A stretch of 41,870 nt of DNA, taken from the NCBI GenBank assembly GCA_018304025.1, contig JAGVXA010000010.1, positions 1 to 41,870 on the forward strand, read 5' to 3'. Of this stretch, positions 8,408-31,547 are shown piece by piece. Position numbers and translations under genes: made by a program. The stretch is from Candidatus Pacearchaeota archaeon. GTDB lineage: Archaea; Nanobdellota; Nanobdellia; Pacearchaeales; GW2011-AR1. Each line of letters opens with the position of its first letter. Within the stretch, counting starts at the first letter, position 1. The notes below the pieces were generated by a model. That model worked only from the letters and a program-made list of their open reading frames with translations, ran no database searches and was not told where the DNA came from.

Positions 8408-9052
8408 ATGAAATATAAAAAGGGGTTGAGTTTGTTGTTTTTTGTTTTTTTGGCTACGGCGATATTTGTAGTGATTCTTTTTTTATTTTATTTTAATGGA
8501 GAAAACGGCGGGGCGGAACCTGAAAGCGCAGTTACAGAAAAAAATGAAAGTACAGATGTTGGCGAGCCGGTTTCTTTGCCGACGCTAAACGAAACGCATT
8601 TGGCTTGTTCAAATAATTCCTGTGTCGCTGTTGACGGAGCCGGGAGTGATGAATGCAATGACTCTGCTGATTGCCAGCCTGTTGTGGCTTTTCCGGATTT
8701 GATAATTAAAAATATAACCATGGCGGTAACGAAGAGTTCCAAGAATTCGACAACAAATATAACTTGGCATACTGTGAAGGTTTCTGTAACTGTCAAAAAT
8801 ATTGGAACTGCGAGCGCGAATCAGTCTGTGACTCAAATAACTTTTGCTGGAGATTTATTGCCGATGAGTTCTGCGAAGGTTTTTACGTCTGTGCTAGAGC
8901 CGGATAAAGAGACAACTTTGGAGTCGAGTTATGAGGAACTGCTCAAAGGGGATTATGACGCGACAGCCAGCGTGGATATTTTGCGAAAGATTGAGGAGTT
9001 GGACGAGACGAATAATGGGTTTTCTGTGGCGAGATTGACTGTTAAGGATTAG
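8408..9052 (+). CDS. Secreted or anchored CARDB-like domain protein
   Basis: N-terminal TM; FPDLIIKNITM...VSVTVKNIGTASANQS...LDETNNGFSVARL. Confidence 0.7.
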   Translation: MKYKKGLSLLFFVFLATAIFVVILFLFYFNGENGGAEPESAVTEKNESTDVGEPVSLPTLNETHLACSNNSCVAVDGAGSDECNDSADCQPVVAFPDLIIKNITMAVTKSSKNSTTNITWHTVKVSVTVKNIGTASANQSVTQITFAGDLLPMSSAKVFTSVLEPDKETTLESSYEELLKGDYDATASVDILRKIEELDETNNGFSVARLTVKD

Positions 9053-9252
9053 AATTTGAAAAAGAAACAACCGTGCCTGATTTTAGACAGGATCTTGTTT
9101 CTTTTTGAGGAGTATAAGGAGAGAATCTAGTAGTAATTCGGATATACTTTACTGCCTTGTTAAAGGACTTTGTTGTAAAGTCTTGAAGAATTACTTTTCT
9201 TCTCTCTTTTCCGTAGGAATATACTCTTTCTATAATTTGTCTATAATTATAA

Positions 9253-9324
9253 ACAAAATTTAACCCTTGAACTTCACTGCGTTCATTCAAGGCTTAAAAT
9301 TCTTTCAGAATTTTAACCCTTGAA
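9253..9324 (+). repeat. 72-nt direct repeat unit, copy A, containing an imperfect hairpin
   Basis: acaaaatttaacccttgaacttcactgcgttcattcaaggcttaaaattctttcagaattttaacccttgaa, also at 9377-9448. Confidence 0.9.
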
Positions 9325-9376
9325 AATCCTACGCTCATTTCATTCGCTTCGTCAATTCAAGTGTTAAATTTTGGGT

Positions 9377-9448
9377 ACAAAATTTAACCCTTGAACTTCA
9401 CTGCGTTCATTCAAGGCTTAAAATTCTTTCAGAATTTTAACCCTTGAA
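9377..9448 (+). repeat. 72-nt direct repeat unit, copy B
   Basis: Same sequence as 9253-9324, offset 124 nt. Confidence 0.9.
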
Positions 9449-9673: not shown

Positions 9674-10654
9674 ATGGAAACCTTAAAAAATCGCTCTGTT
9701 TCACGACGCTCAAATCAAGAATTAAATTCGAGTACGAATTTAATTCTTGAAGGGGAAAACACTCATAAAATCGGGCAGGAGCAAGTTCACGGATTACTGT
9801 TCGGCGAGCAAGTCAGCTGGCAGGCAATTATTTACGATTTGATAAATTCTGAGCAGCTTGATCCGTGGGATGTTGACATTACTATTTTGAGCAACAAATA
9901 TCTTGAGAGAGTTCGGGAGATAGAAGAGGCGGATTTTTTTGTCTCGTCAAAAGTTCTTTTGGCTGCTTCTCTTTTACTGAGAATCAAATCTGAAATTTTA
10001 TTGAACAGGGACATTCCTTCATTAGATGATATTTTGTTTGGGCGAGAAGAAAAGAAAACTTACACGCAGGAAAGAATTGAGCTTGACGAGGAAATGCCTG
10101 ATTTGATTCCTAGGACGCCGCTGGCGCGGGCGCGAAAAGTTAGTTTGCAGGAGCTGATGACTGCTTTAGGAAAGGCGATTCATACTGAAAACAGGAGAAT
10201 CAAAAAAGTTGTGACTGCGCATCAGCAGGAAATCGAGACTGCGTTGTCTTTGCCGACGAGGAGATTCAATCTGAAAGATGAAATTACGAGAGTATACTCT
10301 AAGTTGAAAGAGCTTTTTTCAGGGGAGAAAGAAAAAATATCGTTTAATGAAATTTCGGGAAAAACGAAGGAAGAGAGAGTGGGGACTTTTGTTCCCCTAT
10401 TACACTTGGATAATCAGCAGAAAGTTTTTCTGGAGCAAGAGGGGCATTTCCAGGAAATTTGGGTTTGGATGAAAAAAATTTATGAGGAGAAGAATGCGGC
10501 TTTATTGGAGATTTGGCGACGAGAAGCGGAAGAGGCAATGGCTGCTGAAGAATTAGAGGAGATGGAAGAGGATGAAGGAGAGGAGAGGAAAATTTTTAGG
10601 AAGGAATCTGTGGATGAGAATTATCTTGGTTTGAAGAAGTTGTTTGGGGAATAA
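9674..10654 (+). CDS. scpA: Segregation and condensation protein A (ScpA, kleisin)
   Basis: LINSEQLDPWDVDITILSNKYLERVREIEEADFFVSSKVLLAASLLLRIKSEILL. Confidence 0.9.
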   Translation: METLKNRSVSRRSNQELNSSTNLILEGENTHKIGQEQVHGLLFGEQVSWQAIIYDLINSEQLDPWDVDITILSNKYLERVREIEEADFFVSSKVLLAASLLLRIKSEILLNRDIPSLDDILFGREEKKTYTQERIELDEEMPDLIPRTPLARARKVSLQELMTALGKAIHTENRRIKKVVTAHQQEIETALSLPTRRFNLKDEITRVYSKLKELFSGEKEKISFNEISGKTKEERVGTFVPLLHLDNQQKVFLEQEGHFQEIWVWMKKIYEEKNAALLEIWRREAEEAMAAEELEEMEEDEGEERKIFRKESVDENYLGLKKLFGE

Positions 10655-10712: not shown

Positions 10713-12650
10713 GTGATGGTGAAAAAAGGCGTGTTAATTCCTTTTGGACTTTTTATTTTTATTTTTTTAGGGGGAGGAGTTTCTGCCACTGAGCAGATGA
10801 CAACAGCTTCGAGAACTAGCTGTGTTGCTCCGTGCGCTGTGTTTTTCGATGCCGTTGATACAACAACAATCCAAGTTTGGACTTCTGGAGTCGTGCAACC
10901 TGGCGACGGAGATTTTGCCTCTTTTTTTTATCAGTGGGATTTTGGAGACCCAAATTCTGGAAATTGGAAATATGGGAGGCAAAATTCAGATGGAAGTTAT
11001 CCTTCTAAGAACAAAGCAACAGGATATGTCGCAGGTCATGTTTATGAGATGCCTGGAGATTATACAATAAAATTAAATGTAACTGATACGAACGGAGTTG
11101 TGCATGAGTATACCCAGAATATAACAGTTTCCGATTTTGATTTAGATAACACCTACTGCTTTTCTACAATAGGAGATTTTTCTGAATGTCCGTCTGGAAC
11201 ACCTGAACAAAATAAAATAAATACAAGTTCATTTAGCACAATCACGAGCTATGTTGCAACAGGCAGGAGATTGTTATTGAGAAGAGGAGACAGCTGGATA
11301 GTTGACAGACAATTTACTACCCTTGTCAATGGTCCGGTTATGATCGGAGAATTTGGATCAGGAGATAAACCGCAACTTACTGCTTCAGTTGGTTGGGGAG
11401 ACAGCATGTTAAGAATTACAAAAAATGATTGGAGGTTTGTGAATCTTAAACTTGTACATAATTGGGATAGGGTGCAGAATAGCGCCAATGCTATTATACA
11501 AACACAAGGTTCGCTACATACTCTTATCTCTGGAGTGGATGCGACTCGTTGGGGAGCAACTGCTTACGGATTGTCCGCTGCAGATTATACGTTTTTATAT
11601 GAGTCAAGTGCGACTGACGGAGTTTTGACGGGCGTGTATTCAGAATGGACTAAGCATATTGCAATTTTAGGCAGCTACATTCATGACACAACAGGAAATG
11701 GGGGAAATTTGCCGGGCTCCCATAATATGTATACAATCAGTAATTTTAAAGGGGTGTTTTCTCATAATCTCTTGGAAAACCCTGGAAATTTTAGGGTAAG
11801 CTTGAGGGTTAGTGGTACTACAACAACTGGTGACACATATTTATTTGGATCAGATTACGTCGTGATTAGTGATAACAATTTAAATATTGGTCCAACTGGA
11901 ATGATGGGTTTTGATATTTCTCCTAATGCAGATACTGATCAAGAAATACATCACATTCTAATAGAGCGCAATCGCGTTTATGGCTTTGGTGGTTCTCATG
12001 CGATACATATAGGCGGACCAAAGACTTCCCACATTGCAGTTTTCAATAATATTATTGATTCTTCTCGTATTTGGATTAATAAAGATACTCCTCTGCCTGG
12101 AGACGGACCTAAAGATATAAAAATTTTCAATAATCTTTTCAGTTCTGAATTAAGCTATCCTCTAATAGATTTTACAGATCAATTTAATAATGTGGAAATA
12201 AGAAATAATATCTTTCATTCTACTCAAAGCGCTCCTATTGAAGGTTGGTGGGCTCGTGGAATCAAGTTCCCTACTTCCGCCGATGTTAATAGATCAGTTC
12301 TTAGCAATAATCTTTATTACCATACAATTTTTTCTCCCGGTTGGAATAGAACTATAAAAATAGGTAATGACGCAGACATAGGATACACGCTTGACAAATT
12401 TAAATCAGCGTATCCAAATCAAGAGATTGGCAGCATGGAGGATGATCCTAAATTTATTTCTCCTAGCGATTTTCATCTTGAATCAACTTCTTCTGCAATT
12501 AACAACGGAACACAGATTGCAGGTTTGTTTGAAGATTTCGACGGTAACTTGCGAACTGATGGGATGCCGGATATCGGAGCGTATGAATATATTTCTGAAT
12601 CTCCTTCTGCGCAGTGCGAGATAAAGAAAGCTTATTGGAGAGTTGTGTAG
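10713..12650 (+). CDS. Secreted PKD-domain + right-handed parallel beta-helix protein with CEIKKAYWRVV C-terminus
   Basis: Signal peptide; YQWDFGD...GHVYEMPGDYTIKLNVTDTNG (PKD); beta-helix repeats; terminal tag shared with three other ORFs. Confidence 0.8.
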   Translation: MMVKKGVLIPFGLFIFIFLGGGVSATEQMTTASRTSCVAPCAVFFDAVDTTTIQVWTSGVVQPGDGDFASFFYQWDFGDPNSGNWKYGRQNSDGSYPSKNKATGYVAGHVYEMPGDYTIKLNVTDTNGVVHEYTQNITVSDFDLDNTYCFSTIGDFSECPSGTPEQNKINTSSFSTITSYVATGRRLLLRRGDSWIVDRQFTTLVNGPVMIGEFGSGDKPQLTASVGWGDSMLRITKNDWRFVNLKLVHNWDRVQNSANAIIQTQGSLHTLISGVDATRWGATAYGLSAADYTFLYESSATDGVLTGVYSEWTKHIAILGSYIHDTTGNGGNLPGSHNMYTISNFKGVFSHNLLENPGNFRVSLRVSGTTTTGDTYLFGSDYVVISDNNLNIGPTGMMGFDISPNADTDQEIHHILIERNRVYGFGGSHAIHIGGPKTSHIAVFNNIIDSSRIWINKDTPLPGDGPKDIKIFNNLFSSELSYPLIDFTDQFNNVEIRNNIFHSTQSAPIEGWWARGIKFPTSADVNRSVLSNNLYYHTIFSPGWNRTIKIGNDADIGYTLDKFKSAYPNQEIGSMEDDPKFISPSDFHLESTSSAINNGTQIAGLFEDFDGNLRTDGMPDIGAYEYISESPSAQCEIKKAYWRVV

Positions 12651-12666
12651 AGATTAATGAAATTAA

Positions 12667-13942: not shown

Positions 13943-14040
13943 AGCAAAGAAGTGGAAGCCACATTTCGACTACGAAGAAGAAGGGAATCTTCGATTCGCT
14001 CTTGCTCGAGTACTCGCTACGGCGAGCAAAGAAGTGGAAG
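13943..14040 (-). repeat. Related short element at the 3' end of tRNA-His
   Basis: 16-nt duplicate agcaaagaagtggaag at 13943-13958 and 14025-14040 flanking gaagggaatcttcgattcgctcttgctcgagtactcgctacggcg. Confidence 0.8.
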
Positions 14041-14103
14041 GTGGGAGTCGAACCCACTCCAACAGCGCCACAAGCTGTTATGCTACCGTTACACAACATC
14101 CAC
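14034..14103 (-). tRNA. tRNA-His (GTG)
   Basis: Minus strand GTGGATGTTGTGTAACGGTAGCATAACAGCTTGTGGCGCTGTTGGAGTGGGTTCGACTCCCACCTTCCAC; anticodon stem-loop ACAGC-TTGTGGC-GCTGT; T arm GTGGG-TTCGACT-CCCAC. Confidence 0.9.
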
Positions 14104-14597
14104 CATAGAGATAAAGAGAAAAATGGGTATAAAAGGGTTTCTTATTCGCGATTGTGACATGAGAATTTATTTAATATTCTGCAGAGATTTTTGATAAATA
14201 ATTAAATTTTCAGTTATATAGATAACTAATTTTTTCAATTTTTTCGACAAAGCATTATTCACAGGCACGCTGTTGTATTTTTTCAGCGCGTCTTTTTTTG
14301 TATTTTATTCTTTGTCTTTTCTTTTTTTGTTTTCTTTCAAAGAGATATCCAATTAATTCTGTGCGGAGAATTGGGTTTGCTTCGAAACTTCTGCAGCCGC
14401 GCAAATATGGATGATTGTCGTCGGATAAGTGGACTTCGCTAATTCCATACGCACAATTGGCAAGTCCGGCTGAATTACGTTTGCAAACTTGGCTTTTGTA
14501 TCCTTTATGCCCTCTATAAGTGCAGAAATTTTCTGACAATTCCATAGCGCTTGAAAAGAGCAAGGTTATTAAAATATTGTTGTCTTGTTTTATCTAT

Positions 14598-15221
14598 ATG
14601 GCTGGGAAATTTCAATTTTACGCGTTTAAACTCGCAGGGATTATAATCCTGATTTTTCTGGCTCAGCTTTTGATTCCAGGATTTACTGAATTGTTTTTAT
14701 TAGATAAAGAAGTTTATTTTCAAATCTGGAGATTTTTCACTGCGATTTTTTTGCACGCTGACTTGACGCATTTGATTTTTAATTTGTTTGGATTGGTTTT
14801 GTTCGGGAGCATTTTGGAAAGTTTTATCGGCGGAAAGAGATTTCTTTTTGTATTTATATCGACGGGAATTTTGGCTAATGTCTTGTCAGTTAATTTTTAT
14901 GCGAGTTCTTTGGGCGCGTCGGGCGCGATATTCGGAGTTATCGGCGCGCTGATATTTTTGAAGCCGATGTTGGTTGTTTGGACTTACGGTTTGCCGATGC
15001 CTCTTTTTATCGCCGGTGTTTTGTGGGCTGCTGCGGATATTCTGGGGGTTTTTGGTTTTGGACAAACTGGAATCGGGAACATAGCGCATTTGTCTGGCTT
15101 GGTTTTTGGTTTGCTGTTTGGATTTTATTTTAGGGGATTGATTGTTCGTGAGAAAAGAAGATTGAGATTTGATATTGACGAGAGAGCTGTTAGGAATTGG
15201 GAAGAGGAGTATATGCGGTAA
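14598..15221 (+). CDS. Rhomboid-family intramembrane serine protease
   Basis: Multi-TM, FFTAIFLHADLTHLIFNLFGL, GASGAIFG active-site motif, GNIAHLSGLVFGL. Confidence 0.88.
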   Translation: MAGKFQFYAFKLAGIIILIFLAQLLIPGFTELFLLDKEVYFQIWRFFTAIFLHADLTHLIFNLFGLVLFGSILESFIGGKRFLFVFISTGILANVLSVNFYASSLGASGAIFGVIGALIFLKPMLVVWTYGLPMPLFIAGVLWAAADILGVFGFGQTGIGNIAHLSGLVFGLLFGFYFRGLIVREKRRLRFDIDERAVRNWEEEYMR

Positions 15222-15245
15222 GAAGATTTATCTGGCTGGATTTAA

Positions 15246-17198
15246 TTAAATTCTTCTATACGGCTGTATCAGCGACATCGGCCTGCTGATTTGTCCTGGC
15301 ATTGCTGGGGGAGGGCTTGGCCTGTTCATTTGCCCTGGCGGGGAAAACTTTGGCGGCGGACTTGGACGCGTTAGAACAGTTACATTTGGTTCAGAAGAAC
15401 CTTTTTTTCTTAAAATTAAAAGAGCAATTATTGCGCCAATTAATATCACAACTAAAATTATAATTACTACTAGAATCATCATGGTTGAACTTGTCTCTGA
15501 TTCGCAGTCTTGCATCAATGATTGTCTTCCTGCTGTTGTGCCGCAGTTCATCGTGTCTGTTGCTGTTCTCGTTTGCTTTCCGTTTTTAGGACATTCTTCC
15601 GGAGTCCATTCGCTGTAAGTCCAACTTGGCGTGCAAACTTGGGGCGCAACATAAGTGCAAGTTTGTGTTATTGCCTGTCTTCCTGTTGTTGTTCCGCAGC
15701 TTCTTGCGTCTGTGGCTGTTCTTGTTTGATGTCCTGTTGCATCACAAGCGCTCCAAGCGCCGTAGGTCCAAATTGGCGTGCAGTATGTTATTGCTGGAGC
15801 AGAACCAAGAAATTCTTTTACTCCTGAATGATCCAAGCCAGAAACTTTGAAATAGCTTCCTTCAATTTCGCAGTCTATATCTCCTTCGCTGCCAGGGCAA
15901 CTAACGATTTCTTCAGAACCCTGATCGCAGTCGTTGGAAATATCATTTTCGCTGTCTGTGCTTTCGCTGTCTTCAACGCAGATTAGAGAGCTTGTGGAAT
16001 TTTTTTTGTTGACGTAAATTGTTTTTTCCGCGTCTATTCCTTCGACTATCAAGTAGCCGTATTTTTTGGTAGAAGACTGCCTTTGGAATTTAATTTCGTA
16101 GAAGTTTAATGGCTCGTCTTCGAAATCCCATCCAAATTCTGTTATTAATTCGTCGTCGTAATAGATTTCTACTGTTTCTTCTTCGTAGTCATTTACCCAA
16201 TCTTCTTCTTCGTCTCCGTCTATGAAGACTTCAAAATTTTCGCCGGCTTCGTCGAAATTTGATTCTTGGATTTTGTTTGGGGTTCCAATTCTTTTGTTGT
16301 TTCCATAATCGCAGTAACCTGTTACATTTACTGGTGTGAGAGAATTAAGTCCGCATTTGTTAGTGTCTTTGTAGTAGGTTGTGCTTTTTTCGGTTGTTGA
16401 ATTGCAGGGGGTTTGATAGGCTGTCCAATTTGGAAGGCAGGTTATGTCTGTTACTTTTGTCTGGGTTCCGTTGTATGTGAAACTGTATGCTTCAATTGGT
16501 TCGTTTAGGGCGTTATAAACAACTATATTTATTGGAACAGCTGTTGGAAGGATTGACTCTTGAGGGATTCTAAAATAGTTTCCTTCGCCGTCGAAGACTG
16601 TGTTGAAATTTGTGTTTGGACCTGCTGTAATGCTTATCAGCGCTTCTCCGCCTGAAGTGTAATTAATGTCAGTCACATTGAAATTCACGCTGCCGATTCT
16701 GCAAGTGTTGCTTCCTGCGGCTTCTGTTAAACCACAGACCTGGGGGGCTCCGGGTGCGTTAGTTATTTCCTGAATACTTGTTATGTTCATTCCTCCGCTT
16801 ACAAGAACTTGCGCTTTTAGAAGATAAGATTCTGAATTTGAAGAGTCGTTATAAGATGCAATAAAATATTTGTGATAATACTCTCCTGTTTTGTCTTTTT
16901 CTATAACTGTCAGGTTTTGGATTGCAGAAGTTGCTAATCTTTCACTTGGAGATTTTCCGATAATTGTGAATTGGTTTGTTGCGTCGTCGGCGTATAAGAT
17001 GTTAAAATTTAAACTTTCGTCACCGATGGTTGCAACGGATTTTATGCTGAAATTTCCGTCTCTTGTGAAAATAAAATTGCTTTCTCCTGGGGCAAAGGCA
17101 ATTTTTTTTTCTTGAATTGGGGATAATAAAAGCGCGAAAATCAAAATTGCCGCGATAAATAAAGTTATAAGCGCACTCTTTTTTATTTGAATTTTCAT
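15246..17198 (-). CDS. Cell-surface protein with two WTY..W..C (TSP1-like) repeats and C-terminal TM with Pro-rich tail
   Basis: Start reassigned to MKIQIKKSALITLFIAAILIF; CTPIWTYGAWSAC / CTPSWTYSEWTPEEC repeats; MMILVVIIILVVILIGAIIALLIL. Confidence 0.75.
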   Translation of the reverse strand: MKIQIKKSALITLFIAAILIFALLLSPIQEKKIAFAPGESNFIFTRDGNFSIKSVATIGDESLNFNILYADDATNQFTIIGKSPSERLATSAIQNLTVIEKDKTGEYYHKYFIASYNDSSNSESYLLKAQVLVSGGMNITSIQEITNAPGAPQVCGLTEAAGSNTCRIGSVNFNVTDINYTSGGEALISITAGPNTNFNTVFDGEGNYFRIPQESILPTAVPINIVVYNALNEPIEAYSFTYNGTQTKVTDITCLPNWTAYQTPCNSTTEKSTTYYKDTNKCGLNSLTPVNVTGYCDYGNNKRIGTPNKIQESNFDEAGENFEVFIDGDEEEDWVNDYEEETVEIYYDDELITEFGWDFEDEPLNFYEIKFQRQSSTKKYGYLIVEGIDAEKTIYVNKKNSTSSLICVEDSESTDSENDISNDCDQGSEEIVSCPGSEGDIDCEIEGSYFKVSGLDHSGVKEFLGSAPAITYCTPIWTYGAWSACDATGHQTRTATDARSCGTTTGRQAITQTCTYVAPQVCTPSWTYSEWTPEECPKNGKQTRTATDTMNCGTTAGRQSLMQDCESETSSTMMILVVIIILVVILIGAIIALLILRKKGSSEPNVTVLTRPSPPPKFSPPGQMNRPSPPPAMPGQISRPMSLIQPYRRI

Positions 17199-17250
17199 CG
17201 TCTCTTTTATGGTTTGTTTTAGTTGACGGATGTTATAAATATTTCTACTA

Positions 17251-17522
17251 TTGGGGAAGAATGGGAATTTTTGATTTGCTCTTGCTAATTCTGTTTGATT
17301 TGCTCTTGCTGCGGGCATCCTCGTCTGGCTAACGCCGACTGCGGTGCTCCTCGCTGCGGCAAACAAACATGCTCCGACCGGGACCCGAAATACAAACTCT
17401 TTAGAAAAGAGTTTCTATGAGTTCAGAAACTATAATTGCTTTGCTTCGCAAAGTTGTTTGCCGTCGGCACAAAACGGTAGGATTGAAGCAGTCTTTCAGA
17501 CTGCTAAATGCTCCGACCGGGA
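17251..17522 (-). repeat. Diverged element at the 3' end of tRNA-Glu
   Basis: ttggggaagaatgggaatttttgatttgctcttgct resembles the tRNA-Ile element; atgctccgaccggga duplicated at 17369-17383 and 17508-17522. Confidence 0.65.
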
Positions 17523-17581
17523 TTCGAACCCGGGTTTCGGCCGCGAAAGGGCCGCGTCCTTGACCACTAGACTATAGGAGC
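17510..17581 (-). tRNA. tRNA-Glu (TTC)
   Basis: Minus strand GCTCCTATAGTCTAGTGGTCAAGGACGCGGCCCTTTCGCGGCCGAAACCCGGGTTCGAATCCCGGTCGGAGC; CGGCC-CTTTCGC-GGCCG. Confidence 0.93.
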
Positions 17582-17766
17582 GTTTATTTGTTAAGGAGAT
17601 GAGAAAAAAATTGCTTTTAAAACTTGCTATCCCAGGAAATTCTTTAGAAGAATTAGTCAGTGCAATAATTAGCGCATTAGAGTCGAGAAATTAGCTGAAA
17701 CTGGAGAATATAAAATCTACAAAGAATTTTAAGAATTAATTTAAAAAATAAAATAAATTTGAATTA

Positions 17767-18069
17767 TCAGGACTTGATTAATTGAACTCCTGTGACTATG
17801 CCCCATATCCAAGCAATTGCCCAGAGGATGCAAAAGACTATCCATCCTGGAATGAATATCGCCGCTATTAACGCGAGCGCTATTAAGACGAGCTGATAAA
17901 TTCCGGTTTTTATTCTGCCTGCAATTATGCTTCCGAGTCCGGGAAGGAGAATGTTTAACACTAAGGCGCTAATTGTCAAAACTAAATGCCAGAACTGAAA
18001 TTTGTTTCGCAGATTTTTTTCCTGAGAGGATTTTCTCTTGATAGTTTTTCTTTTAGTTTTTCTTGCCAT
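17767..18069 (-). CDS. Small membrane protein with basic N-terminus
   Basis: Two or three hydrophobic segments, LLPGLGSIIAGRIKTGIYQL. Confidence 0.6.
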   Translation of the reverse strand: MARKTKRKTIKRKSSQEKNLRNKFQFWHLVLTISALVLNILLPGLGSIIAGRIKTGIYQLVLIALALIAAIFIPGWIVFCILWAIAWIWGIVTGVQLIKS

Positions 18070-18225
18070 TTTACCTCCTTTTTGCAATTAATATAATTTA
18101 ACATACTTTTTTCTTTATATAGGTTTTGGTTTTCAGGATTTTGTTGATAGATAAACAAATTGCGATTGCGCGCGAATTGGACGCCAATTGAAAAAATATA
18201 AAAAGGGTGAATGGGTGGTTTTTTC

Positions 18226-19218
18226 ATGGAACAAAAAGAAAAAACTAAGAATTTTAAGAAGCAAATTGTGCCGGAAGGAAAAGTAAATGACTTGATTTTC
18301 AAGGAATTGATTAAGAGAGGATATTCTTTGAGGGGGAACACGAGAGTTTGGAATATCGCTGACTCTAAACTTTGGTATTTGACTCCGGCGCAGGCGCAGG
18401 CGTTTTTAGACTTGGAGAAGTCTACAGACTATCAGAAAGAGGTTATTCAAAAAGAAATTGATTTAATTAATAAAAATATGGGGGAAGTTGTAAAAAAAGT
18501 GGAGGGAGAAAATATTAATATTGTAGATATTGGCTGCGGCGACGGTAAAAAGGCGGTTTTATTTATTGAAAAGTTTGGCTTGGAGCACGTGAAAATTCGG
18601 TACTGCCCGATTGATATAAGCAACTATATGGTTACCAAGGCAATTAACAGAATAAAGAAATTGAATATCGAAGAGATAATTGAGTTTCAATGGAATATTT
18701 CTGATTTTGAGAATTTGGAAAATGTTGCGAATCTGATTAAATCTCAAAAATCTGGTAAGAATTTATTTTTGCTATTAGGAAACACTTTGGGAAATTTTGA
18801 AATTAATGAGCTGCTTTATGAAATAAGGAGCAGCATGGAATGCGGGGAAGTTTTGCTGATTGGAAATGGCTTGAATAATGCTAATGTCGAGGATATAGTA
18901 AAGTCCTATAACAGTTCTGACGTTTACAATTTTCTTATACATCTTTTGACGCAGTTAGGATTTGAAGCGGGCGATTTGGATTTTGGAGTAAGATTTGAAA
19001 ATTCGCGGGTTGAATTATTTTATACTGTGAAAGACAATGTTAAAATAAGTTTTCTTGGCAAGAATGTTTATTTTAATAAAGGGGATCAGATAATTGTTTC
19101 TGTTTCTTACAAATATGACAAGGACGAATTCAAAAGCTTGCTAAACTTGTATTTTGACGACGTTGATGTTTTTACTTCTAAGGATGAGTCGTATGCGCTG
19201 GCGCTTTGCAAGAAATAA
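18226..19218 (+). CDS. SAM-dependent methyltransferase, EgtD/histidine-specific methyltransferase-like
   Basis: NIVDIGCGDGKKAVLF, YCPIDIS, LLLGNTLGNFE, GEVLLIGNGL. Confidence 0.7.
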   Translation: MEQKEKTKNFKKQIVPEGKVNDLIFKELIKRGYSLRGNTRVWNIADSKLWYLTPAQAQAFLDLEKSTDYQKEVIQKEIDLINKNMGEVVKKVEGENINIVDIGCGDGKKAVLFIEKFGLEHVKIRYCPIDISNYMVTKAINRIKKLNIEEIIEFQWNISDFENLENVANLIKSQKSGKNLFLLLGNTLGNFEINELLYEIRSSMECGEVLLIGNGLNNANVEDIVKSYNSSDVYNFLIHLLTQLGFEAGDLDFGVRFENSRVELFYTVKDNVKISFLGKNVYFNKGDQIIVSVSYKYDKDEFKSLLNLYFDDVDVFTSKDESYALALCKK

Positions 19219-19382
19219 CGATACTTTTGAAAATAATCCGTTTGGAAAAAATAATTAGCGTGGTAGAATCGAGAAATTAATCGAAGATTAATTTCCGAGT
19301 ATTTGATGATTAATTGAAGTTGATATTTTTACGGTTTAGAGAAACGAAACTTTAAATAACTTACAAATTCTGTTATCTGTGA

Positions 19383-19407
19383 GATCCTGTAGCTCAGCCT
19401 GGTTTAG
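19383..19407 (+). pseudogene. tRNA-Ile 5' fragment (25 nt exact duplicate)
   Basis: GATCCTGTAGCTCAGCCTGGTTTAG identical to 19464-19488. Confidence 0.9.
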
Positions 19408-19463
19408 GTCCGCCTTGACTGGCGCCTTGGAAAACCACGCTGAGCAGTAGGAAGGAAACAGAA

Positions 19464-19588
19464 GATCCTGTAGCTCAGCCTGGTTTAGAGCACCGCTCTT
19501 ATATGAGTTTGGTTCGTTAGAACTGAATTTTCTCGCTTGAGAAAGCTAAGAAAGGCGGGGGTCCTGGGTTCAAATCCCAGCAGGATCA
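19464..19588 (+). tRNA. tRNA-Ile (UAU) with 49-nt intron at 37/38 (intron 19504-19552)
   Basis: Acceptor GATCCTG/CAGGATC; anticodon stem CCGCT/GGCGG; T arm CTGGG-TTCAAAT-CCCAG; archaeal BHB: 3' bulge AAA, 4-bp helix CTTA/TAAG, 5' bulge TAT. Confidence 0.85.
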
Positions 19589-19670
19589 TTGGGGAAGGGA
19601 ATCTTCGATTCGCTCTTGCTCGAGTACTCGCGTCGGCGAACGAAGAGGTTCAAATCCCAGCAGGATCATT
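19567..19670 (+). repeat. tRNA-3'-end-flanked short element at tRNA-Ile
   Basis: 24-nt duplicate GGTTCAAATCCCAGCAGGATCATT at 19567-19590 and 19647-19670 flanking ggggaagggaatcttcgattcgctcttgctcgagtactcgcgtcggcgaacgaaga. Confidence 0.85.
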
Positions 19671-24934: not shown

Positions 24935-25253
24935 GTTAAGGCGGGAAGGAAAACTTGAAATTGTTGAACCAAGCGAAGAGATGAAGAAGTCTTATATTCT
25001 CAAATCCGAAAGCAATCTAACTTCTGCAAAAATTCTTTTGAATAACAACCGATTAGAGGAATCTGTTAGTTTGGCTTATTACAGTATGTATCATTTGCTT
25101 ATTGCCTTGCTTTTTAAAATCGGAATAAAATCAGAAAATCATTCTGGCTCAATTAATCCTGTTGGTGTTGCAGTTGGCGCATTGTCTTGCCAGACCCAGA
25201 TTACTCCGGCGGGAAATTGCGAGATAAAGAAAGCGTATTGGAGAATTATTTGA
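24909..25253 (+). CDS. Truncated HEPN-domain protein fused to a CEIKKAYWRII tail
   Basis: SYILKSESNLTSAKILLNNNRLEESVSLAYYSMYHLLIALLFKIGIKSE (HEPN N-half), then unrelated tail. Confidence 0.7.
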   Translation: MKKINFLSKLRREGKLEIVEPSEEMKKSYILKSESNLTSAKILLNNNRLEESVSLAYYSMYHLLIALLFKIGIKSENHSGSINPVGVAVGALSCQTQITPAGNCEIKKAYWRII

Positions 25254-25343
25254 GGGAAATTATTATACAAAGACTTATTATAAAATAATACATTACTAAT
25301 AGAAAGCTTTATATAGATGTTTAATATTACTGATGCCGATTAA

Positions 25344-26642: not shown

Positions 26643-28559
26643 ATGAGAAAAGAGGCGAGAATTGATAAAAAGATATTGGTGATTTTTGGGATTTTTATTT
26701 TTTTGATTGGGGGAATTGTTTTGATTTGTTTGGGTGGGGGAGTTTCTGCTGAATGTATTGGCGGAGTTACCGTCGAAAATAATATTTCACAATATGGAAT
26801 AACTTGGTTTTTTGACAAGCCGTATCAATGCGGAACTTTTGTGAATGGGGATTTTTGGGTGAAGACGGATGATTCGACGGGGGTTGTCAATGTGATAAGG
26901 ATGACGCCGGATATGGAGTATGATATTTTAGTAACTACTGATGCTTGTACTTATACTACTGCCACGACAGATTGTGCTGCTCACAATAATGAAAAATATC
27001 ATTTTGATTTAACAAATGATTATATGAGTTCGTGTGTTCTTTATCAAGGGCATAATGGATATTGCACCTATAAGAAAGTAAAGCACGGGTTTATGGTGAA
27101 TCCCAGCAATCCAAGTCAACAAGGGTTTGATGCTAGAGTATCTTCGTCATCATTTAATGAGAGTGTTATCCCTAATATTCCTTATATTGCCAATGGAAAT
27201 GATTCTATTATAAAAGTAATTTCATTTATACCTTGGCAAAGACCCAGATTAAAATCTGCGGCGGTGTTGACAGTGTTAGATAAAATTCCCACAGACAATG
27301 GATCTACAATATTTAGACCACCTTATTTTGGAAATGACAAAAAATTATATTCTTTTAATGATGTAGGTTTTAATAATTTGCCTTCGTATGAACCAGTTAT
27401 TGTGCCACCACCACTTTCTTATTTTTATAATCCGGGTATAGAGCATAAGTTCACGGGTGTTCAGATAGATTACTTTAATGGGGCAGAGATAGACTATATT
27501 CACCCGCATGATAACATGCCAAATGACGGGGGGGCTTTAGCATTCAGAAACGCAAACATCGCTTTACGCTTGATGCTGAATGATACTTTTGATGATAAGA
27601 GAGAACTTGCGATAAACTATATTCAGCATGGAATTGATTTGTACTATGCGGGAATCGGCGGGACAAAATGGCATCCTGATGGTCAGATATTCCTCGGAAG
27701 AAAATTGCCTATAACATTTGCTGCAGTGATGTTGAATGATTCTTCAATGAAAGAATTTGTTAGGACAGCAGATGATATGCAGTTTCAGGAAAATGGCGTG
27801 TTTCATTATACTAAAGAATCAAATAATGTTTTATGGTCATTGAACAAGAGCACATATTGGAATTATTGGAGATATTGGTCCGAGCTTGTTAATCTTCCAG
27901 ACAGCGGGGGGAAAGTCGGTCCTGACCCGCATAACTATATTGATGGCAGCAGTATCCCTGGTATAACTTATCTTGATGGAGGCAATGCAATGCAGGCAAA
28001 GTATACAGCGCTCGCGATTTATCTTATGCTCCCACTGCGTGATGTTTGGAACGATGAAGAATTACTAATATTTGCAGATAGGTGGACGTATCATGGAGTT
28101 ATAACGCAGCCAGATCCGTGCGCTCCGCCGACGGGAATTTGCAAAGCAGGAACGAATAGGGCTGGACAAACCTGTACTCTTGCTAATTCATATCGTTGCA
28201 ATCTCGATTCTCCACCTAGCACGTATGATTATTCTGTTCTTTCATTATGCGATTATCCTTCTTTGTATGCTTTAGATTATGGTGTCAAGTATGGACTAAA
28301 TAGCACAACTAACGAGTGTATTCATGATACAGATACTTCCGATGGTATAGGCAGGCTTCCGTGGGTTGACGGAATGCGTACGAATAGCGGTGTTAGCAGT
28401 AATAGTTGGAAAGAGAGTTTATGGGATACATACCGCAACTGTACAAATGAAATAAAAGATGGAACAGAAACAGGAGTTGATTGCGGAGGGATTTGTCCTG
28501 ATGCGTGCGCTTCGATTGGGAATTGCGAGATAAAGAAAGCGTATTGGAGAATTGTGTAA
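26643..28559 (+). CDS. Secreted paralogous-family protein A with CEIKKAYWRIV C-terminus
   Basis: Signal peptide; ENNISQYGITWFFDKPYQCGTFVNGDFWVKTDDSTGVVNVIR; NEIKDGTETGVDCGGICPDAC; terminal tag. Confidence 0.8.
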   Translation: MRKEARIDKKILVIFGIFIFLIGGIVLICLGGGVSAECIGGVTVENNISQYGITWFFDKPYQCGTFVNGDFWVKTDDSTGVVNVIRMTPDMEYDILVTTDACTYTTATTDCAAHNNEKYHFDLTNDYMSSCVLYQGHNGYCTYKKVKHGFMVNPSNPSQQGFDARVSSSSFNESVIPNIPYIANGNDSIIKVISFIPWQRPRLKSAAVLTVLDKIPTDNGSTIFRPPYFGNDKKLYSFNDVGFNNLPSYEPVIVPPPLSYFYNPGIEHKFTGVQIDYFNGAEIDYIHPHDNMPNDGGALAFRNANIALRLMLNDTFDDKRELAINYIQHGIDLYYAGIGGTKWHPDGQIFLGRKLPITFAAVMLNDSSMKEFVRTADDMQFQENGVFHYTKESNNVLWSLNKSTYWNYWRYWSELVNLPDSGGKVGPDPHNYIDGSSIPGITYLDGGNAMQAKYTALAIYLMLPLRDVWNDEELLIFADRWTYHGVITQPDPCAPPTGICKAGTNRAGQTCTLANSYRCNLDSPPSTYDYSVLSLCDYPSLYALDYGVKYGLNSTTNECIHDTDTSDGIGRLPWVDGMRTNSGVSSNSWKESLWDTYRNCTNEIKDGTETGVDCGGICPDACASIGNCEIKKAYWRIV

Positions 28560-28605
28560 AAATAAAAAAGAAAAGTTTAAATATATAATTAAACAATGTT
28601 TAAAC

Positions 28606-29373
28606 ATGGAGAGCATTATAAGAAATGTCGGCAAATGGGGAAACAGCGCCGGAGTTTTATTGCCAAAAGAATGGGCTGGAAACCAGGTAAATATAATTTT
28701 AATAGAGAGAACAGAAGAAATAAAAAAAGAAGTTTTTGATATCCTCGCCGATAAACTTGAGGAAATTATGGGAATATATCTTGTTGGGAGCTATGCCCGC
28801 GCTGAAATGCGGGAGGATTCTGATATAGACATTGTAGCTATTTCCAGCAATCTTAGAGAAGAAATTGTTTCTGGCAAATATCACATTTCAGTTATTCCGA
28901 TAGACATTGCCAGGCGGAATATTAAAAAAAATCCTCTGATGCTCCTGCCGAGGCTGATAGAAGCAAAAGTTTTGCTAAACAGACATTTACTGAGCGAGCT
29001 TAAGAAAATAAAGTTTGAAAAAGGATTTATTAAAAGATATATAGACGAGACGAAGGACATAATGAAGATTAATTCAGGATTATTGGAGCTAAACAAAATT
29101 GAGAAATATACAGATAATGAAATTTTATATTCTTTGGTTTTGAGAATAAGAGGAATTTTTATTTTGAACTGCCTATTGAACAAGAAATCTTATTCTAATA
29201 AACTATTCTTTAAAAATTTGGAGAAGGGTGTTGGAAAAAACGAATCTAAAGAGATTTATAGAATCTATAAATCTTACAGGGCAGACAAAAAAATTGACCG
29301 AAAAATTAAACTTGAAACTGGAAGGAAACTTTTGGAAATTCTAAGAAAAGATATTACGGCTGCAAGATGGTAA
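28606..29373 (+). CDS. SpoVT/AbrB-like N-terminus fused to nucleotidyltransferase domain
   Basis: IIRNVGKWGNSAGVLLPKEWAGNQV then YLVGSYARAEMREDSDIDIVAIS. Confidence 0.75.
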   Translation: MESIIRNVGKWGNSAGVLLPKEWAGNQVNIILIERTEEIKKEVFDILADKLEEIMGIYLVGSYARAEMREDSDIDIVAISSNLREEIVSGKYHISVIPIDIARRNIKKNPLMLLPRLIEAKVLLNRHLLSELKKIKFEKGFIKRYIDETKDIMKINSGLLELNKIEKYTDNEILYSLVLRIRGIFILNCLLNKKSYSNKLFFKNLEKGVGKNESKEIYRIYKSYRADKKIDRKIKLETGRKLLEILRKDITAARW

Positions 29374-29549
29374 AGCGAATAAAGAGACTGAAAAAAGGGA
29401 TTGAATCTTTGGAAAAACAAATAAAATTCCATGAAGAAAAATTAGATAAGGCGATTGAAGAGAAAGATATTGATTTGGAAGGATATTATAGAAAAGAAAT
29501 TGCAGGACTTAGAAAAAGCAAGTCGCGGAAAGAGAGATTTTTGCCGTAG
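29367..29549 (+). CDS. Small charged coiled-coil protein
   Basis: Overlaps upstream nucleotidyltransferase stop; K/E-rich. Confidence 0.45.
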   Translation: MVKRIKRLKKGIESLEKQIKFHEEKLDKAIEEKDIDLEGYYRKEIAGLRKSKSRKERFLP

Positions 29550-29589
29550 TTTTGCGAAGATTTATTAATTTGTTTTTATTTGTGATGGG

Positions 29590-31380
29590 ATGAAAAAAAA
29601 GGCGATTTTGATTTTTGGGGTTTTGATTTTTTTAATTGGCAATGTGCGCGCAGATTGCGTCGAAGGAATTACTGCTGGAAATAATATTTCACAATATGGA
29701 ATAACTTGGTTTTTTGACAAGCCGTATCAATGCGGAACTTTTGTTAATGGAGATTATTGGGTGAAGACTGATGATTCGACTGGGGTAGTGAATGTTATTA
29801 GAATAACTCCTGATTTTCAACAGTTTAATTTTAATAGCTATTTAAAATGGATAAATGGTTGGGAAGTGAATCCAACTTATAGTAATAAACACGGATTTGA
29901 TGAGAGAGCACAACTTTATGATGCTATTCTTGTTCCGAGCCTACCATATAATGCTCATGCTGATGAGTCTTTGATTAAAGCTGATAGTTGGGAAGAAGCA
30001 GGATTTACTACAGGTTATAGAAGATGCGAGGGAGGTGATACGCCAACTTGTTTATATGCTGTATCTGTCCTTACTGTTGTTGGAGCAATTCCTGAAAATA
30101 ATGGTGAAACTGTTTTTAGACCTTCGTATTTCGGAGCAAACAAAGTTTATTATTCTTCAAATAATTTAAGAACTGACTTATTGCCTTCATTGAATCCTGT
30201 GACAAATGCTCCGACTTTGCAGTGGGCTGTCAATAGATTTAAACCAGTCCAGTTAGATTACATTGCAGTTGCTGACCTTGCGGATTATCTTCATCCTAGA
30301 ATGAGTTGGCCAAATTACTATCCTGCATCAATGGCAAGAGATGTTGGGAACGGTGTACTAAGATTAATGTTGAATGATAGTGTCAGTGCTAAAATGCCAG
30401 CAGTAATTGCTATGACTCAAGCAGGAATTGATTATTATGGTATTTTTAAAGGAGGAATATCGTGGAGTCCTGGAGCTGGAGAAGCAATTGGAAGAAAGAT
30501 GCCTATAATATTTGCTTCTGTAATGCTTGATAATGCAGAAATGAAAAATGCAGTAAGGCCATCAAGAAGCGGCATTCTGGACGATAAGGGATTAGGATTT
30601 ACTGCCTTTGGTGAAGACCAACCTTATCAAGGAAAGAATACAGTGTTATGGGGAGATCCTTTAGGTTCTGCCAAATATTGCCCAGATGAAGATTTTTATT
30701 GGGAAGATATTATTGCTGATTCAACTAGAACATGCAGAGATCCATATGGGTATATAGACGGAGGTAGAATACCGGGCGGAGGATATCAGTTGTGCTGTAC
30801 CTCAGATGCATGGCTTGGGGAAACCTTGGCATTATGTTTGATGCCTTCATTGAGAGACCCCTGGAATGTGACTTATTATCAATATTTACTAGATTATACT
30901 GCAAGATGGAAAGATTCTGGAGCATATACTCAGCCTGATCCGTGTGCTCCTGTAGAGGGTGTGTGTGTTGGAGGAACAAGAAATGGACAGAAATGCACTA
31001 CTGCTTGGTTTGTCTCAGCCGAGTGGGCAGGAACAACAGATACATTCTGCACTGGGGGAGGAATATGTCAATTATCATTAGATAAGTTTAAGGTCACATA
31101 TGGACCAGATCCAAACAAACCTGGAGACTGTATAATGGATAATGACACAAGTGATGGTATTGGAAGATTTCCATTATTGCATGAAAAAAATCAAGGTATA
31201 TGGACAGGATATTCAAGTGAGTTTGCCCATTCAATGTGGGCCAAGTATAAGAATTGCTCAAACGGAGTAATGGACGGAACAGAAACAGGAAAGGATTGCG
31301 GGGGGATTTGTCCGGAGGAATGTGTTACGCCAGTGCAAGGGAATTGCGAGATAAAGAAAGCGTATTGGAGAATTTTGTAA
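29590..31380 (+). CDS. Secreted paralogous-family protein B with CEIKKAYWRIL C-terminus
   Basis: Paralog of 26643-28559: same N-terminal block, NGVMDGTETGKDCGGICPEEC, terminal tag. Confidence 0.8.
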   Translation: MKKKAILIFGVLIFLIGNVRADCVEGITAGNNISQYGITWFFDKPYQCGTFVNGDYWVKTDDSTGVVNVIRITPDFQQFNFNSYLKWINGWEVNPTYSNKHGFDERAQLYDAILVPSLPYNAHADESLIKADSWEEAGFTTGYRRCEGGDTPTCLYAVSVLTVVGAIPENNGETVFRPSYFGANKVYYSSNNLRTDLLPSLNPVTNAPTLQWAVNRFKPVQLDYIAVADLADYLHPRMSWPNYYPASMARDVGNGVLRLMLNDSVSAKMPAVIAMTQAGIDYYGIFKGGISWSPGAGEAIGRKMPIIFASVMLDNAEMKNAVRPSRSGILDDKGLGFTAFGEDQPYQGKNTVLWGDPLGSAKYCPDEDFYWEDIIADSTRTCRDPYGYIDGGRIPGGGYQLCCTSDAWLGETLALCLMPSLRDPWNVTYYQYLLDYTARWKDSGAYTQPDPCAPVEGVCVGGTRNGQKCTTAWFVSAEWAGTTDTFCTGGGICQLSLDKFKVTYGPDPNKPGDCIMDNDTSDGIGRFPLLHEKNQGIWTGYSSEFAHSMWAKYKNCSNGVMDGTETGKDCGGICPEECVTPVQGNCEIKKAYWRIL

Positions 31381-31547
31381 AGATTTTTTGTAGGAGAAAA
31401 GGGATTTTCTCTTTATGGCTGAAAAAAAGGGCGCGTTTTGTTGAAAAATTTAGACAATTAGGAAAATAGCAGCGGGAAGAGAATTAAAAACAAAAAATTT
31501 CAGAAAAAGTGCGTAGGAGAAATACTTATATAGTATAAATTTCTAAT

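Follow-up and report, generated by a model that had tools for sequence, protein, structure and literature searches.

Why do tRNA genes of an archaeal genome carry second copies of their own ends, and what is the short palindrome that lies beside them? The question is raised by contig 19 of a Candidatus Pacearchaeota genome (G000; 992 kb, 88% complete, 29 contigs), a stretch of 41,870 nucleotides (nt) that we call the window. tRNA genes are classic landing sites of integrating DNA, and the known cases are kilobase-sized with an integrase of their own. An earlier note on the window had described a near-identical core at tRNA-His and tRNA-Ile and a diverged one near tRNA-Glu, each bounded by a second copy of that tRNA's 3' end, and had proposed a minimal non-autonomous tRNA-targeting element or a retro-type or recombination product. 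It had also suggested looking for the core elsewhere in the genome, for a trans-acting tyrosine integrase and for empty sites in relatives. We examined the window together with the rest of G000 and with related genomes, among them G002, a genome of the same genus that was analysed nearly whole (numbers such as C11 or C22 denote contigs). With a probability of roughly 0.55, we consider that short, non-autonomous, protein-free hairpin elements are mobile and insert into the arms of tRNA genes, duplicating the terminus and leaving the tRNA intact.

Copies of tRNA ends and the family-1 hairpin

The core GAAGGGAATCTTCGATTCGCTC, which marks what we call family 1, was exact over 22 nt at 13980-14001 and 19594-19615, where none is expected by chance. 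The tRNA-His and tRNA-Ile sites aligned without gaps over 56 nt with 91% match, and a diverged form lay at tRNA-Glu, as the earlier note had said. The spacing of the units was 82 nt at tRNA-His and 80 nt at tRNA-Ile, agreeing with the approximate 80 nt given there. All three flanking copies of 3' ends were present; the length of 24 nt at tRNA-Ile stood, while those at tRNA-His and tRNA-Glu had to be corrected from 16 to 15 nt and from 15 to 14 nt. The tRNA-Glu site is compound: it is bounded by a copy of its own 3' end, as claimed, but what separates the tRNA from the copy is a hairpin of another family (family 2), and the diverged family-1 core lies outside the copy. Relatives of this family-2 insert were found at tRNA-Tyr and tRNA-Ile in G002.

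Family 1 is a dispersed imperfect palindrome with arms of 11 pairs (left arm TCTTCG, an unpaired A, TTCGC; right arm GCGAA CGAAGA). Across 15 copies, compared over the arms only with the loops removed by hand, the arms covaried: 21 cells showed double changes, compared with 6.5 after shuffling, and 95% of positions were paired, compared with at most 49% when the arms were slid. A profile of the core gave 24 matches in G000 at E below 1 and one weak match in the reversed genome. As many as 22 of the 24 had a tRNA gene no more than about 225 nt away, so the core is not found mostly elsewhere. All of these 22 were 3' of the tRNA except one upstream of tRNA-Lys. Around 15 different tRNA loci carry the core, which can point either way with respect to the tRNA; the tRNA-Gly(TCC) locus has one copy nested within another. 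Two copies of the palindrome lie inside apparent protein genes (G000:C11:81972-82016 and G000:C8:18757-18818), with no Rfam RNA beside either; one of them falls in the early part of a frame whose translation resembles, by reading, ribosomal protein S11. In G002, a family-1 palindrome makes up much of the tRNA-Gly(GCC) intron (G002:C22:37841-37898), which suggests that family-1-like elements can become tRNA introns.

To quantify the duplications, we compared the terminal 26 nt of each of the 42 usable tRNA genes of G000 (ARAGORN, introns allowed) with its own flanks, at a threshold score of at least 11. A copy of the 5' end was found upstream of 14 of the 42 tRNAs and a copy of the 3' end downstream of 14, with 22 of the 42 having at least one. 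Shuffled flanks gave 0 matches, and the ends of other tRNAs gave 0.6 (5') and 1.5 (3'). Two or three of the matches are probably false: one is the T-arm of a neighbour (tRNA-Val(GAC) with the adjacent tRNA-Ala), and one falls in a tRNA-like sequence inside a reading frame on C24. Two of the 42 calls are embedded in long reading frames and are perhaps not genuine tRNAs; such tRNA-like sequences occur in mutually resembling long frames at 33870-33951 of the window and at G000:C24:679-761. The copies are 9-25 nt long, and family 1 lies next to copies of the ends of many different tRNAs rather than one attachment (att) sequence. Mature tRNA was considered as their source and rejected, as the copies carry no CCA. 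Against dinucleotide shuffles, 18 of 31 3' units folded below z -2, compared with 5 of 40 controls.

In the stretches scanned with Rfam at gathering scores, only tRNA and one group I intron were detected, and the hairpin units were unmatched. The intron lies in the tRNA-Asn gene (G000:C13:57883-58215; L008:1157-1384), with two more copies of its 3' end downstream. As a separate observation, 56 nt of the tRNA-Gly(GCC) intron of G000 are repeated directly 3' of the tRNA (G000:C21:25896-26160), including the complement of the tRNA 5' end.

Upstream units and promoter position

The 25-nt copy of the tRNA-Ile 5' end upstream of that gene, which the earlier note missed, belongs to a second class of units distinct from the family-1 core. 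Reading towards the tRNA, they have nt 1 to 13-25 of that tRNA, AATC, a variable helix and TCAA, followed by a stretch complementary to the copy and by a short linker. In an alignment of 16 of them (11 from different G000 tRNA genes, plus those of tRNA-Cys from five species), the AAUC/UCAA internal loop was nearly invariant. The helices covaried, with 59 cells changed on both sides compared with 18.8 after shuffling, and with 88% paired compared with 32-41% when slid. A covariance model of this motif, left unnamed by the Rfam scans of the stretches examined, found 13 copies in G000 and nine more spread over four further members of its genus. All but two of these 22 strong matches were located 5' of a tRNA and on the same strand as it; the two exceptions repeat the tRNA-Val unit and form an array at the end of contig 25. 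Weak matches in other genomes were few and away from tRNAs. The 5' units also folded more stably than dinucleotide shuffles (mean z -3.3, compared with -0.6 for control leaders; 30 of 32 below -2, compared with 11 of 49), and the tRNA-Ile leader of the window (19383-19463) reached -34.3 kcal/mol with z -4.0.

The position of the promoter indicates which terminus is the older one. In tRNAs without an upstream copy, a TATA-like box peaked at -30/-31. In those with an upstream copy, the peak stood at -30 to -32 from the outermost copy, and there was none relative to the tRNA itself. As the box keeps its distance of about 30 nt to the outermost copy, that copy marks the original gene start, and the insert has the old terminus on one side and a second, complete terminus on the other. 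G000 has an RNase P RNA, so that long leaders are removable in principle, and RNase P probably removes them. Its presence also led us to reject a missing RNase P as the reason for the odd leaders.

Relatives, enzymes and competing explanations

No core was found at up to 3 mismatches in 92 related genomes. Diverged family-1 copies exist in G002, where end copies occur on the 5' side of 19 of 41 tRNAs and on the 3' side of 18 of 41. Most units there belong to other hairpin families, each recurring at several G002 tRNAs, and the Asp, Gln and Ser tRNAs carry tandem arrays. We also observed, just past the T-loop half inside the second copies of 3' ends of several G002 tRNAs, a two-hairpin element (Table 1). 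The occupied tRNAs differ: tRNA-Tyr has no copy in G000 and both copies in G002, while tRNA-His is occupied in G000 and below threshold in G002. The relatives found by histidyl-tRNA synthetase are Candidatus Pacearchaeota at 60-65% identity, and the tRNA-His copy was absent from all six of the closest relatives in which the gene was seen (L123-L126, L128 and L129). More distant Nanoarchaeota (L133, L136, L137, L138 and L146) have end copies with other hairpins. Among 41 tRNAs sampled from 29 other genomes of the phylum, there was one genuine end copy, three further matches being neighbouring tRNAs; 17 bacterial tRNAs yielded none.

The occurrence of one sequence at many tRNAs, in both orientations, together with nesting, tandem arrays, species-specific sets and copy-free tRNAs in relatives, points to mobile, non-autonomous palindromes. 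The exact terminal duplication and the promoter distance kept from the outer copy indicate that the gene was opened in its D- or T-arm and then restored. In the mechanism that we envisage, elements of about 40-130 nt from several families would insert, those of the 3' class in the T-arm and those of the 5' class in the D-arm, leaving a duplicate of the terminal 9-25 nt while one complete tRNA gene survives. The distal copy would be the original terminus, with the element and a regenerated terminus in between. They would probably spread by insertion rather than by gene conversion. Transcripts would start from the old promoter and run across the hairpin, their leader and trailer being trimmed by RNase P or by 3' processing. 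Elements of the 5' class would also pair with the distal copy, and this may stop the copy from taking the place of the real tRNA end as the RNA folds. The restoring copy and the complementary strand of the 5' class could each arise by a staggered cut with fill-in or by template switching through the conserved arms. The minimal non-autonomous tRNA element of the earlier note is therefore the best-supported reading, with several unrelated hairpin families and the 5' class added to what it had seen; inserts of 40-130 nt have no room for a gene, as it had also argued. Neither of the two outcomes that it had named as refuting its view came up: the core does not lie mostly away from tRNAs, and end copies flank the majority of the other family-1 sites, though not every one. 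More tentatively, these units may represent a new class of mobile nucleic acid that targets the D-, T- or anticodon arm and copies the terminus to keep the gene whole, the 5' class gaining a complementary strand. If so, tRNA leaders, trailers and perhaps introns would keep arising from them in these archaea.

Several observations weigh against mobile elements. The family-1 copies outside tRNA genes have no flanking duplication, and several tRNA-associated ones have no recognisable end duplication. The copies vary in length, unlike most target-site duplications. The relatives offer no clean strain-level empty site, the comparison being one between species at the synthetase identities given above. 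No transposase or integrase common to the unit-rich genomes was found. Finally, the 5' motif covaries and is found in several species at the same tRNAs (Cys, Ser and Gln), which is what a selected RNA would be expected to show.

This last point leads to the strongest rival, in itself rather doubtful: the units would be selected leader or trailer RNAs of tRNA precursors, spread among tRNA genes by gene conversion and serving as a processing signal, a protein-binding AAUC/UCAA hairpin or a folding switch in which the complement pairs with the tRNA or with the copy. The strong covariation, the nearly invariant loop, the recurrence just mentioned and the stable leader folding would all follow from it, as would the confinement of all 22 strong genus matches to tRNA 5' ends or the tRNA-Val array. 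Moreover, differences between copy and tRNA keep G-U pairs at Gln(TTG) and Ser(GCT). Yet most tRNAs function without units, the occupied sets vary between species of one genus, G002 has other families at the same tRNAs, and family-1 copies also lie inside apparent protein genes. The covariation, the fixed loop and the wobble-keeping differences favour some RNA-level role, and the mobile-element and selected-RNA readings may both be partly true.

The units might also have arisen with no mobile element at all, by replication slippage and template switching at the palindromic arms of tRNAs, which would duplicate the termini and also make inverted stretches, followed by tandem expansion. The order copy, inverted copy, copy, seen at tRNA-Arg(CCT) and in several 5' units, would fit such events, as would the tandem arrays of G002. 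We nevertheless regard this explanation as unlikely: it leaves one core at about 15 different tRNAs and the common AAUC/UCAA loop unexplained, and the recurrence of unlinked identical inserts weakens it further.

A tyrosine recombinase is strongly conserved in every genome and, by reading of its sequence, is probably XerA-like; it is the only one in G002. G000 has in addition a 418-aa tyrosine recombinase frame shortly after tRNA-Asp (G000:C12:9470-10811), for which no counterpart was found in G002. This tRNA-Asp carries a short 5' hairpin, and no second tRNA-Asp terminus marking the far end of an element was found. The search for a trans-acting tyrosine integrase thus yielded recombinases, none of which fits as the common agent. 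That the units are instead scars of kilobase elements, inserted by such integrases and then deleted internally to leave their ends and a displaced tRNA fragment, seems quite improbable to us. Integrases do restore the tRNA (PMC4383910) and displace fragments of it (PMC4383910, PMC9897764), and archaeal integrative elements use the same parts of tRNA genes, the 3' part or, for pTN3-like integrases, the 5' half (PMC8371274); the 418-aa frame directly after tRNA-Asp would suit this history. Against it, about 15 tRNAs whose att sequences differ would all have to retain the same hairpin, G002 has a single tyrosine recombinase, and no second tRNA-Asp terminus was found. A plain tyrosine-integrase element misfits as well, since every copy corresponds to its own host tRNA and not to a single att, the lengths vary between 9 and 25 nt, and G002 is rich in units despite its single recombinase.

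Other enzymes that might have been shared by the unit-rich genomes were rejected, with the proviso that an 88%-complete assembly cannot establish an absence. The Y1 (HUH) transposase PF01797, which a REP/RAYT or IS200/IS605 derivative would call for, had no match in G000 and one in G002, and Cas1 was found in neither, with one only in G004. The only reverse transcriptase found in G000 is part of a diversity-generating retroelement (L050:8040-10800; G000:C11 about 28040-30800), in which one template repeat accompanies two variable repeats that end two genes; the G002 match has a stop codon. This, together with the lack of CCA in the copies, leaves the retro-type product of the earlier note unsupported. 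Viral and plasmid carriers were likewise set aside, the full core being unmatched in viral contigs, phages and plasmids. A 16-mer gave 79 viral matches, none of them a full-length element, and a family-2 pattern gave six. It is very improbable that Cas1 or a casposase integrated the units as short, spacer-like DNA: duplications of about 14-15 bp do accompany casposase insertion at tRNA 3' ends, yet Cas1 is missing from both genomes and the inserts recur as families rather than being unique.

Known systems, window features and further observations

Four kinds of known system resemble the units in part. Casposons share the insertion at tRNA 3' ends and a similar duplication length, but they are large and encode Cas1 and a polymerase, and no Cas1 was found in G000. 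Repetitive extragenic palindromes (REP), Rickettsia palindromic elements (RPE) and miniature inverted-repeat transposable elements (MITEs) are likewise short, dispersed, gene-free hairpins, and family 1 also lies, frame-like, inside apparent protein genes. The present units, in contrast, are nearly confined to tRNA genes and duplicate the terminus, and the RAYT-type Y1 transposase was not found in G000. Tyrosine-integrase elements (SSV, pNOB8 and pTN3 types; genomic islands) also enter these parts of tRNA genes, restore the gene and displace its end; they measure kilobases and have their own integrase and one att each, whereas here the inserts are tens of nt, contain no gene and have duplications matching every host tRNA. 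A similar layout is seen at the tRNA-Thr of Caldiarchaeum subterraneum, where a 5' tRNA fragment stands upstream of the intact gene after a mobile-element insertion (PMC3293823). That insertion is 1.8 kb long, encodes a recombinase and affects one tRNA, whereas the present hairpins measure 40-130 nt and are found at roughly every second tRNA gene. In the open-licence literature, we found no description of hairpins of tens of nt doing so at a large share of a genome's tRNAs.

In two genomes of one genus, hairpins of tens of nt occupy about half of the tRNA genes and leave the genes unbroken. They offer a concrete system in which ideas on how tRNA leaders, fragments and introns arise can be tested, and they mean that duplicated tRNA ends need not signal genomic islands.

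The features of the three tRNA sites are collected in Table 1. ARAGORN labelled 19464-19588 as Ser; the sequence and the G002 homologue identify it as Ile(TAT).

Table 1. Features at the three tRNA sites, in window positions, followed by two sets of repeats and hairpins located elsewhere.
Feature	Position	Strand	Basis
Distal copy of tRNA-His 3' end, 15 nt (10 nt tRNA and 5 nt trailer)	13944..13958	-	direct reading; own-end score 10
Insert at tRNA-His with family-1 palindrome (profile match 13986-14032)	13959..14025	+	core match, profile
tRNA-His(GTG)	14031..14104	-	ARAGORN, Rfam
Diverged family 1 beyond the tRNA-Glu copy: truncated piece and hairpin, arms TGTTTG-A-TTTGC / GCAAACAAACA	17255..17369	+	weak profile matches 17266-17286 and 17350-17367; direct reading; arm covariation
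Distal copy of tRNA-Glu 3' end, 14 nt	17370..17383	-	own-end comparison
Family-2 hairpin insert between tRNA-Glu and its copy	17384..17508	-	sequence comparison, reading
tRNA-Glu(TTC)	17509..17581	-	ARAGORN, Rfam
TATA-like box about 30 nt upstream of outermost tRNA-Ile 5' copy	19351..19358	+	reading, position profile
Copy of tRNA-Ile 5' end, 25 nt	19383..19407	+	own-end comparison
5' insert pairing with the copy into a leader hairpin, variant without the AAUC/UCAA loop	19408..19463	+	fold, complement match score 11
tRNA-Ile(TAT) with intron	19464..19588	+	ARAGORN with introns allowed, Rfam; homology to G002 tRNA-Ile(TAT)
3' insert at tRNA-Ile with family-1 palindrome (profile match 19600-19646)	19589..19646	+	core match, fold, profile
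Distal copy of tRNA-Ile 3' end, 24 nt (22 nt tRNA and 2 nt)	19647..19670	+	direct reading, own-end comparison
Two-hairpin element, examples	G002:C12:20392-20422; C17:103692-103722		also Lys and Ile in G000 by eye
Diversity-generating retroelement repeats (L050 numbering)	template 8773-8879; variable 9165-9271, 10052-10158		

Two other observations concern the window outside these sites. A perfect direct repeat of 72 nt, made up of small hairpins and with its copies 124 nt apart, lies away from tRNAs at 9253-9448. Four otherwise different window proteins share a near-identical C-terminal tail, CEIKKAYWR(V/I)(V/I/L), encoded at 12609-12654, 25212-25257, 28518-28563 and 31339-31384, which is possibly a sorting or processing signal.

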